Below are positions 47,579-62,233 of a stretch of 62,233 nucleotides of DNA, piece by piece. The notes beneath the pieces are model-generated. The model did not search any database. It was not told where the DNA came from and saw only the letters and a list, made by a program, of their open reading frames with translations. Positions within the stretch are counted from its first letter, which is position 1; the number at the start of each line of letters is the position of its first letter. This DNA is from Clostridia bacterium (GTDB lineage: Bacteria; Bacillota; Clostridia; Christensenellales; Aristaeellaceae): NCBI GenBank assembly GCA_017396845.1, contig JAFQKQ010000073.1, positions 1-62,233 of the forward strand. The letters are read 5' to 3'. The translations under genes were made by a program, and so were the position numbers.

Positions 47579-49054
47579 ATGACGGATTTGGATTACTTGA
47601 AAATGAGCAAAGGCGAAAAGCTCGTTCACAACGCAGGCAAGTGGATCGCATCCCTTCCCAAGAAGCTTCTGAACAGCATTTGCGCCATCGCCATGTTTTT
47701 CGTAAACCTGGTCAAGAAGTTCATTGCAGAAATCAAAGACATCGTAATGACCTTCGTTCACGGCGACTGGAAAACCCGCGTTTCCTTCTTCATCATGGGC
47801 TTCGGCTCCTTCGCGCGCGGACAGTGGCTGCGCGGCCTGCTGTTCTTATTGTTCCAGACGGTATTTAATATGTACATTCTCTTCTTTGGCGGCGCGTATC
47901 TTGCCAAATTCGCTACCCTCGGCACCATCGCGACCACCAAGGTAAACCGCAAAACCGTATACGGAGACAACTCGTTCATGATCCTCCTTTACGGCATACT
48001 CACCATCTTCTTCATCATCGCCTTCATTTATACCTGGCGCGCAAACGTACGTCAGAACAAAATCTCGCAGGAAATTCTGAAATCCGGCAAAAAGCTGAAG
48101 TATGCAAAAGACGACATCGCTTCCCTTGCAGACAGTCAGTTCCATAAAACCCTGCTCGCTCTTCCGACGCTGGGCATATTCACCTTCACCGTTCTTCCCA
48201 TCATTTTCATGATTCTGGTTGCTTTTACCAACTACGACGCGACCCATCAGCCTCCGGGCAAGCTGTTCACATGGGTGGGCTTTGACAACTTCAAAACCCT
48301 CTTTTCCTCCGGAAGCGCCAACTACGGCGACGCGTTCGGACAGGTGCTTCTGTGGACGCTGATCTGGGCGTTCTTTGCCACGTTCTTAAACTACTTCCTC
48401 GGCATGCTGGTCGCCATCATGATCAACAAAAAGGGCATCAAACTTAAGAAAATGTGGCGCACGATCCTCGTTATGACGATCGCCATTCCGCAGTTCGTAT
48501 CTCTTCTTTATGTATCCAAGCTCTTTGCGGCGGACGGCCTGATCAATTCGCTGCTCTTAAAGTGGGGCTGGATCAAAGAAGCGCTTCCCTTCTGGACGAA
48601 GCCCAGCTGGGCGCGCGTGACCGTTATTGCCGTAAACATCTGGATCGGCATTCCGTATCTTATGCTGATTGCCACCGGTATCCTTATGAACATCCCGGCG
48701 GATCTGTACGAGAGCGCGCGCATCGACGGCGCGAACGCCGTTCAGACCTACGGCAAGATCACGCTGCCCTACATGCTGTTCGTTACCGGCCCTTACCTGC
48801 TCACTTCCTTTATCGGGAACATCAATAACTTCAACGTAATCTACCTGCTCACGCAGGGCAAGCCCGATACGCTCGGCAATGCCGCCGGCGCTACCGACCT
48901 TCTGATCACCTGGCTGTACTCGCTCACCGTAGACAATTCGAACTTCAAAATCGCCGCCTGTATCGGTATTATCGTGTTCGTCGTCTGCGCAATCATCAAC
49001 CTCGTCGTGTACAACCTGATCCCGTCGGTCAAGAATGAGGAGGATTTCCAGTAA
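47579..49054 (+). CDS. ABC maltodextrin permease (MalF-like)
   Basis: 491 residues. Two extra hydrophobic segments (about 75-105 and 130-150) precede the six-helix permease core, and the first 70 residues form an amphipathic Lys-rich N-terminus. EAA loop ESARIDGANAVQTYGKITLP at about 377-396. It pairs with the MalG-like permease, whose start overlaps its stop by 1 bp. Confidence 0.92.
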   Translation: MTDLDYLKMSKGEKLVHNAGKWIASLPKKLLNSICAIAMFFVNLVKKFIAEIKDIVMTFVHGDWKTRVSFFIMGFGSFARGQWLRGLLFLLFQTVFNMYILFFGGAYLAKFATLGTIATTKVNRKTVYGDNSFMILLYGILTIFFIIAFIYTWRANVRQNKISQEILKSGKKLKYAKDDIASLADSQFHKTLLALPTLGIFTFTVLPIIFMILVAFTNYDATHQPPGKLFTWVGFDNFKTLFSSGSANYGDAFGQVLLWTLIWAFFATFLNYFLGMLVAIMINKKGIKLKKMWRTILVMTIAIPQFVSLLYVSKLFAADGLINSLLLKWGWIKEALPFWTKPSWARVTVIAVNIWIGIPYLMLIATGILMNIPADLYESARIDGANAVQTYGKITLPYMLFVTGPYLLTSFIGNINNFNVIYLLTQGKPDTLGNAAGATDLLITWLYSLTVDNSNFKIAACIGIIVFVVCAIINLVVYNLIPSVKNEEDFQ

Positions 49055-50004: not shown

Positions 50005-51132
50005 ATGGCAAGCGTAACACTTGAGCATGTAAAAAAGATATATGACAACCACGTCGTCGCGGTACAGGACTTCAATCTGAATATCAAGGACAAGGAATTC
50101 GTCGTATTCGTAGGCCCCTCCGGCTGCGGAAAGTCCACCACGCTTCGAATGATCGCAGGCCTTGAGGACATCTCCGAAGGCACGCTCAAAATCGGCGAGC
50201 GCGTCGTAAACGACGTGGAGCCCAAGGACAGGGATATCGCAATGGTTTTCCAGAACTACGCCCTGTATCCCCACATCACCGTATACGAAAACCTCGCCTT
50301 CTCCCTGCGCATCCGCAAGATGGACAAAAATGAAATCCATCGCCGCGTGTGCCAGGCTGCCGAAATCCTCGGCATCACCGAATACCTCGCCAGAAAGCCC
50401 AAGGCACTCTCCGGCGGTCAGCGCCAGCGCGTCGCCATCGGCCGCGCCATCGTTCGCGAGCCGCAGGTATTCCTGATGGACGAGCCGCTTTCCAACCTCG
50501 ACGCCAAGCTCAGAAACCAGATGCGCGCCGAAATCATCCTCTTAAGAAAGCGCCTCGATACCACCTTCATCTATGTAACCCATGACCAGACCGAAGCCAT
50601 GACGCTGGGCGACAGAATCGTTATCATGAAGGACGGCTTCATCCAGCAGGTCGGCACGCCCCAGGAGGTATTTGAGACCCCGCACAATCTGTTTGTCGCA
50701 TGCTTTATCGGCTCTCCTCAGATGAACATTTTCAACGGAAAGCTTGTAAAGGAAGCAAACGGCTACAGCGTAAACTTACTCGGCATGAAGCTGAACCTGG
50801 ACGAAGAAAAGTGCGCTCTTCTCAGAAAGAACAACGTATCCTCCATGGACGTACTCGTAGGCGCGCGCCCCGAGCATATGACGGTATGCTTTGATAATAA
50901 GGCTTCCGCCATCAACGGCATGATCACCGTAAACGAAATGATGGGCAGCGAGCTTCACCTGCACGTAGCCGCGGGCGACAGCAAAAACACCATCCTGCGC
51001 ATCCCCACCATCGACCTTACGCCCGCCCAGCGCGCCTCCCTCGACGCCGGCAACTCCATTGCCTTCACCTTCCCCACCAAGGTCATCCAGCTGTTTGATC
51101 CCGCAACGGAAGAGAGCCTTCTGTACAGATAA
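50005..51132 (+). CDS. MsmX/UgpC-type sugar ABC transporter ATPase
   Basis: 375 residues. Walker A GPSGCGKST, Q-loop FQNYALYPH, signature LSGGQRQRVAIGRAI, Walker B VFLMDEPLSNLD and switch His in THDQTEAMTLGDR. The C-terminal ~130 residues are the TOBE/OB regulatory domain of the MalK group. Family members energise several sugar importers each. It is the only sugar-importer ATPase in the window, while three sets of sugar permeases are present, so it is the prime candidate to serve all of them. Confidence 0.95.
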   Translation: MASVTLEHVKKIYDNHVVAVQDFNLNIKDKEFVVFVGPSGCGKSTTLRMIAGLEDISEGTLKIGERVVNDVEPKDRDIAMVFQNYALYPHITVYENLAFSLRIRKMDKNEIHRRVCQAAEILGITEYLARKPKALSGGQRQRVAIGRAIVREPQVFLMDEPLSNLDAKLRNQMRAEIILLRKRLDTTFIYVTHDQTEAMTLGDRIVIMKDGFIQQVGTPQEVFETPHNLFVACFIGSPQMNIFNGKLVKEANGYSVNLLGMKLNLDEEKCALLRKNNVSSMDVLVGARPEHMTVCFDNKASAINGMITVNEMMGSELHLHVAAGDSKNTILRIPTIDLTPAQRASLDAGNSIAFTFPTKVIQLFDPATEESLLYR

Positions 51133-52673: not shown

Positions 52674-54032
52674 ATGAAAAAGGTTGTATCCCTGCTCATG
52701 GTTCTGATGCTGCTGGTTGGCTGCGCAAGCTTCGCCGCTGCTGAAGAAGAAATCGTCCTGAACGTTTGGTCTTTCACCAACGAGCTCGAAGGCATGATCG
52801 CAAAGTATTATGCTCCCTCCCATCCCAATGTAAAGATCAACTACGTAATCTACCCCACCGACGGTGGCGAGTACACCTCCAAGGTAGACAACATCATGGC
52901 TTCCGCTGCTGCTTCCGATGAAGCTCCCGACATCTTCACCCTCGAAGCTGCTTTCGTAAAGAAGTATGTCAACTCCTCCGTAACTGCAGATCTCGCCAAG
53001 GTCGGCATCACCGAGGCTGACACTGCCTCCGCTATCCCCGTAATGAAGCAGATCGGCACCAACACCGCCACCGGCGAGCTGAAGGGCCTTTCCTGGCAGG
53101 CAACTCCCGGCGCTCTGATGTATCGTGCATCCCTCGCCGAGAAGTATCTGGGCGTTAAGACTCCCGAAGAGTTCCAGGCTCTCGTAGCTGACTGGGATCT
53201 GTTCATGGAGACCGCCGCTCTCGTTAACGAGGCTTCCGAAGGCGCTACCAAGATGGTAGTAGGCGCCGGCGACATCTGGAACGCTTTCAACTTCGGCCGC
53301 GAACAGGGCTGGGTTGTTGACGGCAAGCTCGTCATCGACGACATCCTGTACGATTACCTCGACCTGGCTGTAGAGCTCGAGCAGGACGATCTGTCCAACA
53401 AGGGCAACGCTTGGTCCGAAGCATGGTTCCTCGGCATGAAGACCGACACCACCCTGTGCTTCTTCCTCCCCACCTGGGGTCTCCACTACACCCTGAAGCC
53501 CAACTGCGGCCTCACCACCAATGACACCATGAGCGACGAAGAGATGAAGGCTGCCTGCGAAGCAGACGGCGGCACCTACGGCGACTGGCGCATGGTAGCC
53601 GGCCCCGTTGGCTACAGCTGGGGCGGAACCTGGATCGGCGCGAACGCCGCGAAGGTTGAAGCTGCTTCCGATGCCAAGAAGGCTGCTATCAAGGACTTCA
53701 TCCTGTTCTTCACCATGAGCGAAGAATTCCTCTATCAGTACGCGCTCGACTCCGGCGACTTCGTTGGCAACAATGCTATCGTTGACAAGATCATCGCTGA
53801 AGGCGGCACTCCCAACCCCTTCCTCGGCGGACAGGATCACTACTCCATCTTCGCAGAGGCTGCTAACCTCGCCAACGGCGCTATCATGACCGACTATGAC
53901 GAGAAGATGAACTCCCTGTGGAGCGACTATGTAACCACCCCCTACTCCAAGATGGAGAAGGATCTGGATACCTGCATCGCCGACTTCAAGGCCCAGGTAA
54001 CCGCTCAGTTCCCCGAGCTGGTTGTAGAATAA
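52674..54032 (+). CDS. Extracellular sugar-binding lipoprotein
   Basis: 452 residues. Signal peptide ending in LMLLVGCASF, with a plausible lipobox LVGC, so it is probably lipid-anchored. Family-1-type solute-binding body opening IVLNVWSFTNELEGM. The codons are strongly biased (GCT, TCC, AAG, GTA), as for a very highly expressed gene. Start 52674 has AAAGGAGG upstream; ten extra in-frame codons upstream do not. Its permeases follow after a strong hairpin. Ligand unknown. Confidence 0.9.
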   Translation: MKKVVSLLMVLMLLVGCASFAAAEEEIVLNVWSFTNELEGMIAKYYAPSHPNVKINYVIYPTDGGEYTSKVDNIMASAAASDEAPDIFTLEAAFVKKYVNSSVTADLAKVGITEADTASAIPVMKQIGTNTATGELKGLSWQATPGALMYRASLAEKYLGVKTPEEFQALVADWDLFMETAALVNEASEGATKMVVGAGDIWNAFNFGREQGWVVDGKLVIDDILYDYLDLAVELEQDDLSNKGNAWSEAWFLGMKTDTTLCFFLPTWGLHYTLKPNCGLTTNDTMSDEEMKAACEADGGTYGDWRMVAGPVGYSWGGTWIGANAAKVEAASDAKKAAIKDFILFFTMSEEFLYQYALDSGDFVGNNAIVDKIIAEGGTPNPFLGGQDHYSIFAEAANLANGAIMTDYDEKMNSLWSDYVTTPYSKMEKDLDTCIADFKAQVTAQFPELVVE

Positions 54033-54223: not shown

Positions 54224-55201
54224 GTGCAATTGACAAAGAAAACTTCCGCGATTTCGCCCAAGCGAAAGAGGAAATCCATCAGCTACGATAAATACGGCTA
54301 CTTTTTCGTAGCGCCATTTTTCATTGTGTTCCTTATCTTCCAGCTGTATCCCATCTTCTTCACCTTCCGTACTTCGCTGACGGACGCAGCCGGCTGGGAA
54401 AAGATACTTGACAACAAAATCATCGGCTTCGGCAACTTTGCAAAGCTCTTTGATTTCGGAACCGAGATCTCGAATTTCTTCTGGCGTTCCCTCGGAAACA
54501 CCGTCATCATGTGGGTGTTTAACTTCATTCCGCAGATCGGAATGGCATTGATACTGGCCAGCTGGTTCACCGATACCCGCATGCGCCTCAAGTTCCAGGG
54601 CGGCTTCAAGGTCATGATCTTCATGCCCAACATCATCACCGCCGCCACCATTGGTATTCTCTTCATGTCCCTGTTTAACTACCCGGTTGCTCCGGTCAAT
54701 ACGCTGCTTCAGCAGTTCGGCCTTTCAAACGCTCCGATCGAATTCATGCGCTCAACGCCCATTGCCCGGGGCCTTGTCTCCTTCATCCAGTTCTGGATGT
54801 GGTACGGCAATACCATGATCATCATGATCGCCGGTATTCTGGGCATCAGCCCCTCGCTGTTTGAGGCGGCGCTGGTAGACGGCTGCTCTTCCAGGCAGAC
54901 CTTCTGGAAGATCACCCTCCCGCTGATTAAGCCTATACTGCTTTATAACCTTGTAACTTCTCTGGTCGGCGGTCTTACGATGTTCGATATCCCGCATCTG
55001 ATGACCCAGGGCCAGCCCGATTATACCACCAACACCGTTGCCCGTTTCATTTACCAGCAGGGCTTTGAAACGCCCAACAACTTCAACATCGCATCCGCAG
55101 CATCCGTTATACTGTTCGGCATCATCGTAGTCTGCTCTTTGATCCTCTCCAGCATTATGAAGGATCGCAGTGATAAGAAAGTAAGGAGGATGGGCAAATG
55201 A
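54224..55201 (+). CDS. ABC sugar permease (MalF/UgpA-like)
   Basis: 325 residues with six membrane segments after a basic N-terminus (KRKRKSISYDKYG). EAA loop EAALVDGCSSRQTFWKITLP at about 213-232. Probable GTG start at 54224, since an overlapping ATG is out of frame; the ribosome site GGGGTGG is fair. Its stop overlaps the next ATG (ATGA), so the two permeases are translationally coupled. Confidence 0.9.
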   Translation: MQLTKKTSAISPKRKRKSISYDKYGYFFVAPFFIVFLIFQLYPIFFTFRTSLTDAAGWEKILDNKIIGFGNFAKLFDFGTEISNFFWRSLGNTVIMWVFNFIPQIGMALILASWFTDTRMRLKFQGGFKVMIFMPNIITAATIGILFMSLFNYPVAPVNTLLQQFGLSNAPIEFMRSTPIARGLVSFIQFWMWYGNTMIIMIAGILGISPSLFEAALVDGCSSRQTFWKITLPLIKPILLYNLVTSLVGGLTMFDIPHLMTQGQPDYTTNTVARFIYQQGFETPNNFNIASAASVILFGIIVVCSLILSSIMKDRSDKKVRRMGK

Positions 55202-58116
55202 AATCCAGGATCAAGTCGATCTATTCCATTTTGATTATTTTGTCCATCGTGATGATGTTCCTGCCGATCGGTGAATCCGTTGATAACTCAGTAGTTGTCA
55301 TGCAGCAGGAAATACGTTCCGAAGAAGCAGGTATGGAACGTGCGGTGGATAAGCTTACCCGCGAAAACGATAAAGTTCAAAAGGCTGCGGATAAAGAAAT
55401 CACCATACAGATAGACGAAGAACTGTCAGCAGCCATTGACGCCAAAGCCGCTGAAGTTCAGGCGCTCAGCGCTAAAGTCACTCTGCTTGATACGCTTTTA
55501 TCCCGTGCCAGCACCGTAAGAAGTCTTGAAGCACACGACGCTACGCTGGCGGAGGACGTCTCTGATCTCATCGCTGCAATCGAAACGCAAAATGCAGTTT
55601 TAAAAGAAGCCCTTAATATGGCCGCATCGGAAAAAGCTGCTTTAGACAAACAGCAGTCCGATTACTTAGCATCGCAGGCATTCATCCCTGCCGTCGAAAC
55701 CATCGATGAAGCCGGCAATGTCATATCCCTAAAGGACCTTCTTCAGTCCGAAACGGAACAGTTTTCAGGCGTATTCGATTCCCGTCCGGAAAACGGCGAA
55801 GCGTACATGAGCTGGAAGCTGGCATTGGACAACAAGCGCAGCGAGCTTGACGCAAGCAAAGCCGAAGGCGGACTTTCCGCTGAGGAAGAAGCCTTTATCG
55901 AAGCATCGATCGCCGATTCTGATGAGCGATACATCGTTATGATCAAAATCTTGCGTCAGCAGGTAGCTATTGATGAAATGGCTGCCGATCCTACCGTGGA
56001 TGCCGACGTAGTCGCCGCTCTTCAGAAAACGCAGGACGATGTTTACAAGCAGATCGGTAAAGTAAACAAAGAGCAGTCCAGCGTAAATAAGCTTATTGCA
56101 GAAATGGAAGCGCTGAAAAACAGCGAAGCCCTGCCTTCCGTCGAATATGCACTGCTGCCCAAAAAACTTCCCCTTCTGGATAATCTTGTGAATTCCTTTA
56201 CCGCAGATATCGAAGCCAAGGATAAGGAAATCCAGAATATTACAAACAGCATTGCTGCTACAGAAGAGATTATCGCCTCTGCTACGGATGAGATTATCTC
56301 GGCTGCAAAAGCGGAAAAAGCCGGACTGGAAGAGCAGCTGCATGCAGCAACCGCATCCAAGAAAGAGCTTGAAAGCCAGCTTGAAGCGGCAAAATCCGAG
56401 ACGGCAGCGTATAAGAAGACAAAGCCTTCCTATAATTCCGAGGAGAACAAAGCCCTTGAAAATCTCACCGGCAATGAGCAGGAGATCATCGTTATTACCG
56501 GCGATGTGAAAAAGCTGGATGAATTTATTGACGCAGCAGTCCAGGTATCTGCCTCAGAAATTCATTTAGATTATGACCTGTCCGCAATTGTCGCGTCAGC
56601 TGAAGCTTTAAAGAATCAATTCAATGCGAATACGGAAGCTATTCAGTCTGAAATATCGGAATTGAATGCCGTTCTGGAAGACCCCAAAGCAGCTGAAGCT
56701 GACTTTAACAAGCATCTTTCTTCCTTGACGGATGCCGAAGTTTCCCTTCAGACGGCAATCGATGAAAAGGCCGCTGAAATTGCCTCTATCGAAGCGCTCA
56801 TTAAAGAAAAAGCCGACTTCATCGATGCGGCAGACGAGAATCTTGATAAGACCAAGCAAAAGAAAATCGATTTGGAAAAAGACCTGGCAGCTGCCAATGC
56901 GGCAAAAGCCGATCTTGAGACGGCGCTTGAAGCCCACAAAGCAGAGATCAATCAGTCAGTCGTCAAGATTGATATGAGCGTTGCCAATGCTTCGCCCGGA
57001 CAGGCTTATCCCACAATCCTCAATGATTACTATATCGCCGCATGGACAGCCGTTGTAATGCTGGCTCTCGCGTTGATACTTGTATGGATTCCCCGCAAGC
57101 GGCTTGTCAGCAAATTCTATACGCTTGCTTCCGCTGCAAATCTGATTGCTATACTCTGCATTGCTTTCTCCATCCTTCGCTTGAAGGCTATCCCGATTGC
57201 ACTGCCGTACAGCAATCCCTCAATAAACGGCGCGATTGCAATTCCCATGATCGCAATGCCTCTGATCGCCTTATTGATCCACTGCAGCAACACGCTCAAC
57301 ACCAAGCGCACAATGATCTATGTTCTGTGCATTTCCCTGTGTGTACTGAGCTTGATTCCCTTCTGGCTGATGATTGTAAACGCAACCCGCAACTCTCAGC
57401 AGATTCAGGGCGGCGTATCGCTTATCCCCTCCACCTTCCTGTCGCACAACTGGCAGGTACTTCAGCGCAAGAACTTCGACGTGCTTGTAGGCTTTAAGAA
57501 CAGTGCTATCATCGCCTTTGGTTCCACGCTCCTGAGCGTATACTTCTCTGCACTGACTGCCTATGGTCTTACCGTTTATAAGTTCAAGGGCGCAAAATTC
57601 CTCTATGCTGTAATCCTCGCCATCATCATGGTTCCCGGACAGGTTACCGCTACCGGTTTCTACATGTTCATGTACCGCCTCGGATGGACGAACAGCTACC
57701 TCCCCCTGATCATCCCCTCCATCGCAGCCGCTTCTACGGTATTCTTCTTCAAGCAGTACCTTGCCGCGAACTTCCAGGTATCCCTGGTAGAGGCGGCGCG
57801 CATCGACGGCGCAGGCGAGTTCTACACCTATAACAAGATTGTCATGCCCATCATGGTCCCCGCAATGGCGACCATGGGTATCATGGCTGTAATCGGCAGC
57901 TGGAACAACTACCTGACCCCCTTGATGCTGCTTTCAAAAACCGAAATGAAGACCCTGCCGATGATGGTAAAAGAGCTGCGCGGCGACATCTACCGCACGG
58001 AATACGGCTCCATCTATCTGGGCCTCACGCTGACCGCCCTCCCGCTTCTGATCGTGTACTTCTCCCTCAGTAAGTACATCATCGCAGGCGTTGCCGTCGG
58101 CGGCGTAAAGGAATAA
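55198..58116 (+). CDS. MalG-type ABC permease carrying a ~575-residue coiled-coil insert
   Basis: 972 residues, over three times a normal MalG. Residues 7-25 are a first membrane helix. About 26-600 form a long Ala/Glu/Lys-rich coiled coil with almost no aromatics and no Cys, split by short breaks (about 160-205, 305-330, 405-425). Helices at about 611-631, 641-662, 676-696 and 705-729 follow. Then comes the canonical permease core with the EAA loop EAARIDGAGEFYTYNKIVMP (865-884) and a GGVKE end. Positive-inside reasoning puts the coiled coil outside the cell. One continuous frame with no stop, ATG coupled to the upstream permease. The insert region looks more A/T-rich at third positions than the core, which may mean a separate origin. 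No ATPase in this operon. Confidence 0.85.
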   Translation: MKSRIKSIYSILIILSIVMMFLPIGESVDNSVVVMQQEIRSEEAGMERAVDKLTRENDKVQKAADKEITIQIDEELSAAIDAKAAEVQALSAKVTLLDTLLSRASTVRSLEAHDATLAEDVSDLIAAIETQNAVLKEALNMAASEKAALDKQQSDYLASQAFIPAVETIDEAGNVISLKDLLQSETEQFSGVFDSRPENGEAYMSWKLALDNKRSELDASKAEGGLSAEEEAFIEASIADSDERYIVMIKILRQQVAIDEMAADPTVDADVVAALQKTQDDVYKQIGKVNKEQSSVNKLIAEMEALKNSEALPSVEYALLPKKLPLLDNLVNSFTADIEAKDKEIQNITNSIAATEEIIASATDEIISAAKAEKAGLEEQLHAATASKKELESQLEAAKSETAAYKKTKPSYNSEENKALENLTGNEQEIIVITGDVKKLDEFIDAAVQVSASEIHLDYDLSAIVASAEALKNQFNANTEAIQSEISELNAVLEDPKAAEADFNKHLSSLTDAEVSLQTAIDEKAAEIASIEALIKEKADFIDAADENLDKTKQKKIDLEKDLAAANAAKADLETALEAHKAEINQSVVKIDMSVANASPGQAYPTILNDYYIAAWTAVVMLALALILVWIPRKRLVSKFYTLASAANLIAILCIAFSILRLKAIPIALPYSNPSINGAIAIPMIAMPLIALLIHCSNTLNTKRTMIYVLCISLCVLSLIPFWLMIVNATRNSQQIQGGVSLIPSTFLSHNWQVLQRKNFDVLVGFKNSAIIAFGSTLLSVYFSALTAYGLTVYKFKGAKFLYAVILAIIMVPGQVTATGFYMFMYRLGWTNSYLPLIIPSIAAASTVFFFKQYLAANFQVSLVEAARIDGAGEFYTYNKIVMPIMVPAMATMGIMAVIGSWNNYLTPLMLLSKTEMKTLPMMVKELRGDIYRTEYGSIYLGLTLTALPLLIVYFSLSKYIIAGVAVGGVKE

Positions 58117-60606: not shown

Positions 60607-61083
60607 CTACGCGCTCTGACGCCGCCTGAACGCAAGAACAGCCATAAGGGATGCAATTCCCAATGCGATGAACGCCCCGTAAACCGGGAAGGAATCATCA
60701 CCGGAGGCAGGAATGAACGTAGTGTCGATTACGCGAACATTTACGTCCACCTTCAAAACCATCTTGTCGCCCTGATAGGCCTGCATGGTGTAAAGACCCG
60801 CATCCTCCATCTGCGCGTTTACAATATTGTATATGCGCTCGTCTGCGTTGTTTTCAATCTTCTCACCTTCGAAATACCACTGCCAAGCGGTCGGCTCTAC
60901 TCCGTCCACACCCACTTCAATCTGAAGATCCTCGCCCACATTGGCAATTGCGCTCTGCGTGCGGTTGGTTACGCGGAAAGTGAGATATGTGCGAATCGCT
61001 CCGCCTTCTGCAAGCGCAGCGCCTGAAATAAGCCCAACAATGAGAATCGCGATCATCAGCCGGATCCCCGCGCGTTTCGGCAT
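60607..61083 (-). CDS. Small Ig-like surface protein with a sorting-signal-like C-terminus
   Basis: 158 residues. Signal peptide (about 1-25, cleavage near ALA/E). One Ig-like domain (about 40-118: ...AWQWYFEGEKI...MEDAGLYTMQAYQGD) without the usual disulfide. The C-terminus reads FIPASGDDSFPVYGAF, a hydrophobic helix, then RRRQSA: the layout of an LPxTG sorting signal with a variant motif IPASG. If a matching sortase exists it would be wall-linked; otherwise it is a membrane protein facing outward. Strong GGAGG site and its own promoter. Function unknown. Confidence 0.65.
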   Translation of the reverse strand: MPKRAGIRLMIAILIVGLISGAALAEGGAIRTYLTFRVTNRTQSAIANVGEDLQIEVGVDGVEPTAWQWYFEGEKIENNADERIYNIVNAQMEDAGLYTMQAYQGDKMVLKVDVNVRVIDTTFIPASGDDSFPVYGAFIALGIASLMAVLAFRRRQSA

Positions 61084-61264: not shown

Positions 61265-62233
61265 TCATCCGAAAATCCTGATATCAACATCCGCCTCATC
61301 GCGCGAAGAAAGTATCTTTATGAAAAACTCGGTTATACCCTCCTCCCGGACCGGGCAGATTTTCTGAAAGCCAATGGTGGTTCCTTCATAGAAACACTTC
61401 TTTTTGCCAAAATCATCCTTTTTTAAAAGCTGAAATCTTTCAACGCGCTGTCCGCAGGAAATATTTTCCTTAAGAACAACCATGCGAACATCCTTTTTTT
61501 CATTAAACGCAGCGCGGTACTGCGCCTGGCTTGACGAAGACTCGATCTTCTCGATCACAGCCTCATTCGTGATATCCTTTTCAAACGCGCTTCTCAGCGC
61601 GTCTCCCATTTCCTTCAGACGCTTTACATCCCTCGGATCAAATTTTCCGTTCGGCATGGGCGGAATATTCAAATTGAAGCTTGCATTGCCGCCGACGGAT
61701 GTGTAGTACGTATTCAGAAGCCTTTCCAGCGAATGCGGCGCCTCCTCCGGATGATAGAACCAGCCGTTTCTTATGGACATGTCCGTCTCCGCCGGACAGA
61801 ACGAAAGCCCGCGGCTGTGGCGCAGAATAGCATCGCTCCCGAGATCCTGCCACGTATTATAAATATCTTCAAGATTTCCCTCAGGCGTAAGCTCCTTTTG
61901 CATTTCGCACCTGTGGATCAGTTCAATCGGAAGCACGCACCACTCCGCATATCTCGCCTTTCCGCTTTCGTTTCCGATCCAGCGGATATCGGGCCCGCCG
62001 TCGTTGAATATGCATGCATTCGGCTGGTACTTTCGAATCAGCTCGATGTAGCCCGGAAAATCGTATTCCTGCTTTTTTCCGTTCGGCCCTTCGCCGCATG
62101 CGCCGTCAAACCATACGTAGAATATCTCGCCGTACTCCGTGAGAAGCTCTGTAAGCTGCTTTTTGTAATAGTCATTATATGCATCCGTTCCGTAGAGCTT
62201 GCTGTTTCTATCCCACGGTGAAAGGTAAAATCC
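61265..62233 (-). CDS. Alpha-L-fucosidase, GH29 (5' end beyond the window)
   Basis: 322 codons are visible; the frame stays open to the window edge, so the N-terminus is missing. The visible part begins GFYLSPWDRNSKLYGTDAYN, a GH29 barrel strand. The nucleophile Asp lies in the canonical context FYVWFDGACGEG. ASFNLNIPPMPNGKFDPRDV closes the barrel, and a C-terminal beta domain ends at 61265. It differs clearly from the short fucosidase at 22026-23243 and looks like the classical, longer type. Whether it is secreted cannot be seen. Confidence 0.92.
   Translation of the reverse strand, partial: GFYLSPWDRNSKLYGTDAYNDYYKKQLTELLTEYGEIFYVWFDGACGEGPNGKKQEYDFPGYIELIRKYQPNACIFNDGGPDIRWIGNESGKARYAEWCVLPIELIHRCEMQKELTPEGNLEDIYNTWQDLGSDAILRHSRGLSFCPAETDMSIRNGWFYHPEEAPHSLERLLNTYYTSVGGNASFNLNIPPMPNGKFDPRDVKRLKEMGDALRSAFEKDITNEAVIEKIESSSSQAQYRAAFNEKKDVRMVVLKENISCGQRVERFQLLKKDDFGKKKCFYEGTTIGFQKICPVREEGITEFFIKILSSRDEADVDIRIFG

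Follow-up and report, generated by a model that had tools for sequence, protein, structure and literature searches.

The window, which is the whole 62,233-nucleotide stretch of Clostridia bacterium contig JAFQKQ010000073.1 that was analysed, encodes a MalG-type permease extended at its N-terminus by a four-helix membrane module, the first outer loop of which is modelled as two long coiled-coil hairpins. The protein is genuine; it represents a variant, confined in the genomes sampled to one family, of a known type of importer, and the form in the window is extreme. Permeases of the sugar-importer type are usually pictured as compact pores that work with a binding protein; in one bacterial family, an importer permease was found to carry a further membrane module, which is conserved and bears a coiled-coil hairpin on its outer side. 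With confidence slightly short of even, it is proposed that the protein serves as the MalG-side permease in a sugar importer that depends on a binding protein, and that the module, its loop grown into two hairpins, works at the outer face of this complex.

The first-pass annotation had described a single uninterrupted 972-codon frame encoding the true partner of the upstream permease, and both statements were borne out. The frame runs from ATG to stop without interruption (Table 1), the product is of the MalG type, its ATG overlaps the stop codon of the MalF-type gene as ATGA, and a binding-protein gene lies nearby. Over residues 28-588 there were 0 stop codons in the gene frame, 20 and 45 in the other two forward frames, and 13 in one reverse frame. 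The SBP_bac_1 match in the binding-protein gene scored 27.2 bits (cut-off 26), and hmmscan of the 452-aa protein by itself listed no family. No ATPase gene directly adjoins the importer operon; one with ABC_tran and OB_MalK is located at 50005-51132 of the window. The MalF-type permease of a neighbouring system (47579-49054, forward strand, 491 aa) has its permease domain from residue 273 onward and a long N-terminal extension with helices of its own. On the reverse strand, 60607-61083 encodes a membrane-anchored protein of 158 aa in which an immunoglobulin-like domain was matched weakly (PF13927, E 3.4e-6, below the cut-off; PF07679, 23.6 bits vs 23.7), and a frame at 61265-61936, near the contig end, matches the C-terminal end of the alpha-L-fucosidase family (PF01120, E 1.2e-8).

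Table 1. Features of the importer operon and of the extended permease (window coordinates; residues are those of the 972-aa protein)
Feature	Residues or length	Position	Strand	Basis
Substrate-binding protein	452 aa	52674..54032	+	SBP_bac_1 match at 52773-53414
MalF-type permease	325 aa	54224..55201	+	BPD_transp_1, E 2.8e-13
Likely ribosome-binding site, AAGGAGG		55183..55189	+	Sequence; 8 nt 5' of ATG 55198
Extended MalG-type permease	972 aa	55198..58116	+	ORF
TM1 of extra module	7-25	55216..55272	+	Hydropathy; helix 3-19 in model
Base strand	23-29	55264..55284	+	Model
Hairpin A, tip-grown	31-307	55288..56118	+	Alignment, model
Base strand and conserved LLPxKLP	314-325	56137..56172	+	Model, alignment
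Hairpin B, second growth site, tip poorly predicted	327-587	56176..56958	+	Alignment, model
TM2-TM4 of extra module	613-694	57034..57279	+	Hydropathy, model
Permease core	705-972 (last 268)	57310..58113	+	BPD_transp_1, solved relatives, homologues
EAA loop, EAARIDGAGEFYTYNKIVMP	865-884	57790..57849	+	Sequence motif

The permease core was matched by BPD_transp_1 at residues 783-964 (E 8.8e-13; 48.8 bits, cut-off 26.4), and its nearest solved relatives were SugB, AlgM2, and MalG. The EAA loop, through which such permeases contact the ATPase, was intact as previously reported, and its pattern was present in 70 of 72 aligned rows. The domain, the loop, and the adjoining MalF and binding-protein genes together assign the protein to the MalG type; sugar transport itself is predicted from sequence.

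Hydropathy placed three helices after the insert (residues 613-631, 649-667, and 676-694) and the first core helix at 709-727, so that the four extra helices of the first-pass annotation are obtained when TM1 is counted and not, as had been stated, after the coil. Helical hydrophobic periodicity (3.4-3.65 residues) was compared with shuffles in 21 segments of 42 residues over residues 21-622, and reached p <= 0.01 in 4 and p <= 0.05 in 8 of them. The insert was modelled as long helices, with block pLDDT mostly 70-91, 55 at residues 161-170, and 40-69 at 401-500; since the pTM of the full-length model was 0.49, the placement of the stalk relative to the core is uncertain. A modelled strand at 314-318 and bridge residues 589 and 591 split the insert in two, so that there is no single continuous coil. 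The one giant stalk originally described was therefore not upheld: it is better read as two hairpins, given a helix pairing deduced from helix order, the one-hairpin module having been extended at each of two sites. A single continuous rod was set aside, since growth occurs at two sites and strands lie at the base. Net charge averaged over the 72 rows was -7.6 for the insert loop (-56 in the window), +3.0 for the N-terminus, +1.3 for TM2-TM3, +0.6 for TM3-TM4, and +2.1 for TM4-core, which fits an N-terminus on the inside and supports the earlier suggestion that the insert lies outside. Coiled-coil proteins matched by the stalk, SMC and Tc-toxin among them, were rejected as relatives, the matches reflecting composition or shape; those to SMC fit an antiparallel hairpin B, though with rmsd above 20. 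The viral fold library yielded no specific match.

Searching the genomes of 60 relatives gave some match in 50, mostly to the core only. Five of the 60 encode 492-497-aa permeases of the same architecture (51-61% identity over the aligned part), each adjoining relatives of the window's binding protein (50-66%) and MalF (57-72%). The nine nearest unextended MalGs, counting those whose frame does not run on, are 277-297 aa in length, and in the longer frames L033 and L035 the upstream sequence is unrelated to the window's module. At L033:5826-7223, a MalG core 45% identical to that of the window is in one frame with the start of a LacI-type regulator, as a fusion or run-on. Residues 35-752 were matched in 105 of 308 family genomes, many of them just at the core start, and in neither of the two other genomes of the window's genus.

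The arrangement of TM1, coiled-coil insert, three helices, and permease core was present in all 72 other family loci that were retrieved (five from the first search; two truncated at a contig end), with MalF at 70 and the binding protein at 66, some partial or at contig ends. Homologues of the same architecture thus exist, and in each of these loci the coil is inside the permease frame, which answers the separate-gene coil named in the first-pass annotation as the case against a single protein. The basic design is not unique to the window, and its short-hairpin form is usual in the family. A second set of 76 named loci, overlapping the first, came for the most part from bins of gut, rumen, or digester origin that carry the label Clostridia or Clostridiales; some are titled Christensenellaceae or Bacillota, and one Lachnospiraceae. 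The 72-row alignment consisted of the window and 71 of these relatives, the five that were cut off within the permease being left out. One named contig (L202:1-654) starts inside the closest core found (91% identical, residues 755-972). With a profile of the extension, 17 of 396 genomes of the order were matched, 12 over the extension, all in the window's family and including the window, and 5 only over the last 20-27 positions, at the core start. In a sample of the phylum, 3 of 398 genomes were matched, two besides the window and these over the coil only. Across the 396 order and 398 phylum genomes sampled, matches spanning the extension were confined to the window's family. Among the open-access papers listed, none dealt by its title with such a permease, or with an ABC transporter that has a claudin fold.

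The outer loop (residues 28-608 in window numbering) was 101-117 residues long in 64 of the 72 aligned proteins, which argues for a constrained working length; it measured 207 residues in five, and 220, 308, and 581 (the window) in one each. Its common part is a two-helix hairpin followed by (Y/F)-x-L-L-P-x-x-L-P and then by conserved D, N, and Y before TM2. Growth site A, used by five 598-aa proteins and the window, is the hairpin tip, and growth site B, used by L141, L181, and the window, follows LLPxKLP. The site-A growth has one exact length in all five 598-aa proteins (the 207-residue loop), and window residues 176-325 are about 50% identical to them. A six-row alignment that put the short hairpins at residues 500-590 was dropped; with the 598-aa rows they fall at about 28-60 and 276-326. 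In a quick tree, a single clade was rejected for the three site-B rows (p 1.4e-7) and not rejected for the six site-A rows (p 0.27), and the window joined L141 with an unstarred support of 83.9. The binding protein encoded in the window shares 92.7% identity with the one that goes with a 598-aa permease, and 89-90% with those that go with two 494-aa permeases. Closely related transporters thus offer a natural length series (about 102, 207, 220, 308, and 581 residues), which makes the role of the outer element in binding-protein docking directly testable. In each of the 15 pairs compared, conservation of the stalk and of TM2-4 fell below that of the core. Stalk dN/dS was 0.09-0.30 in 12 of these pairs, indicating purifying selection on the stalk; one pair gave 0.74, and in the other two, each of which included the window, saturation prevented an estimate.

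The first outer loop of the added N-terminal module carries a coiled-coil hairpin, and in the window this loop has grown at two places into two long hairpins. In the proposed mechanism, the module would sit beside the permease pair. Its outer part would work on the outside of the complex, close to MalF and to the binding protein once docked, where it might help to capture, orient, or gate the binding protein, and the long form would extend this reach outward. Distances were compared among 53 of the 72 loci with complete genes, using 300 permutations. Loop distances followed those of MalF (0.43, 0/300), and module-helix distances followed those of the binding protein (partial r 0.23-0.26, 0/300) and not those of MalF (0.025, 107/300). 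Outer-loop distances followed the binding protein weakly (0.11, 27/300), and with the helices controlled for there was no association between the two (0.008, 147/300). This covariation fits a role at the outer face and lends no weight to a direct link of the stalk to the binding protein. Weighing against an outer-face role, such a module is dispensed with by many importers of the window's own genome and by the closest unextended MalGs; the departures of the window protein from nearly invariant base residues, the one dN/dS value of 0.74, and the saturation of both pairs with the window also count against it.

The genes near the 76 named loci included a LacI regulator at 13, a GH3 enzyme at 11 (seven of which are just 28-31% alike to the query), and a GH94 phosphorylase at 8, and L209 has a CBM48/alpha-amylase gene instead. 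The nearest solved relative of the binding protein is an arabino-oligosaccharide-binding protein (weak similarity, E 6.1e-7), and the window operon has no adjoining neighbour of these kinds. Taken together, these observations point to an oligosaccharide of uncertain kind as the substrate, probably plant-type and perhaps beta-linked.

The manner in which the binding protein is held at the membrane was also considered. A search for Omp85 that was positive in 7 of 14 controls had 0 hits in 60 family genomes, so a single-membrane envelope is likely; Lgt was present in 58 and LspA in 50 of the 60. The window genome has 19 SBP_bac_1 loci (L225-L243), 16 with a readable signal peptide, and by our own reading a lipobox-like cysteine is present in two of these 16, including the window's binding protein; in the family's binding proteins, the pattern occurs in 30 of 53, a few of them doubtful. 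Gram-positive binding proteins are described as commonly lipoproteins (PMC7530257). A role of the stalk as a substitute for the lipid anchor was dropped, because most binding proteins of the window genome lack a lipobox and are served by no such stalk.

Among the other explanations, the one that fares best, although we think it unlikely, is that the short hairpin is functional and the extra length has arisen by drift, a low-complexity coil having been lengthened without consequence. Long forms are few (8/72), the stalk has a small 24-bp tandem repeat, beyond which self-comparison revealed no internal repeats, and third-position GC in the stalk was below that of the core in all 14 genes compared, with a marked gap in the window (0.49 vs 0.74), the protein of which also departs from the nearly invariant base residues A25, F27, and K41. 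Drift is harder to reconcile with the identical length of the site-A growth in the five 598-aa proteins and its similarity to part of the window's, or with a frame kept open over 581 residues that are crossed by stops in the other forward frames. Somewhat less probable still, the long hairpins may be a spacer or anchor that reaches into the wall and holds the importer there by binding peptidoglycan or an extracellular glycan-degrading partner. With a predicted leg length of at most 130 residues (31-160), the hairpins would extend about 19 nm at 1.5 angstrom per residue, and the likely single-membrane envelope would suit such an anchor, but the usual short hairpin, with about 30 residues a leg, is too short and no wall-binding domain was matched in the insert. 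The further suggestions of the first-pass annotation, a coil that might span or sense the wall or keep the binding protein near the pore, are likewise conjecture. MacB and FtsX transporters are built as TM1, outer domain, and three helices, and the same helix order in the window's module, with long helices that could serve as levers, would allow ATP-driven helix motion to be passed to the outer coil and then to a partner; this is very improbable. No FtsX-type match was among the Pfam, NCBIfam, or fold matches listed, which says little either way, and the ATPase contact loop lies in the core. An assembly or binning artefact joining two genes, to which a 123-contig bin that is 73% complete and the lack of a close counterpart for residues 61-175 and most of 330-588 might point, is the least credible and, like a chance fusion, was set aside, because the architecture is common to 72 loci, a short-hairpin module is present in members of the family, segments from each growth site also occur in relatives, and both junctions are in frame.

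For the preferred reading, an added module acting at the outer face, the predicted fold of that module provides a possible parallel. Modelled alone (pLDDT 86.2), it is predicted to comprise four helices and a small outer sheet in a claudin/TARP-like arrangement, and 33 of the first 34 Foldseek rows were claudin-fold subunits (TARP, Cav-gamma, LHFPL), none of them significant singly (best E 0.07); unrelated helix bundles score similar Z. The claudin/PMP22/TARP signature W-LW-C-C lies in the first outer loop, and it was present in 0 of 72 rows, none of which has two cysteines in the loop. No claudin family was among the best 25 of 154 Pfam families and no claudin among 23 PDB sequence matches up to E 10; PF13903 gave no match either, and, as it also matched 0 of 14 control genomes, this says nothing on claudin similarity. 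In AMPA receptors, claudin-type helpers influence the ligand-binding domain via their first outer loop, and the effect depends on how long this loop is (PMC10603098); the domain descends from bacterial binding proteins (PMC12551409). By analogy, bacteria might possess their own version of TARP/GSG1L in the window protein, in which a module of claudin shape is joined to an import permease; its variable first outer loop would reach the clamshell binding protein and tune its docking or release, much as TARP loops act on the likewise clamshell-shaped receptor domain, and the length of the loop, which ranges from a single short hairpin to two long ones, would be the evolutionary dial. We consider this doubtful, the weak covariation of loop and binding protein having lowered its chances a little; the parallel is one of analogy. 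If confirmed, a claudin-like fold would sit on a binding-protein-dependent machine in bacteria.

Compared with known systems, the claudin-fold helpers (TARP gamma, Cav gamma-1, LHFPL, GSG1L) are separate animal proteins and not fused, unlike the window module, for which the matches listed showed no sequence similarity to them and in which their signature is absent. MacB and FtsX have their own ATPase-coupled domain and were not among the matches listed for the window protein. The P2 loop of E. coli MalF, an outer insertion of about 180 residues that meets the binding protein, resembles the window insert as a large outer insertion in a maltose-type permease, but it belongs to the other subunit and is not a coiled coil. 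MalG, SugB, and AlgM2 have neither the four-helix N-terminal module nor the coiled-coil insert, and share with the window protein the core domain, the EAA loop, the MalF partner, and the binding protein.
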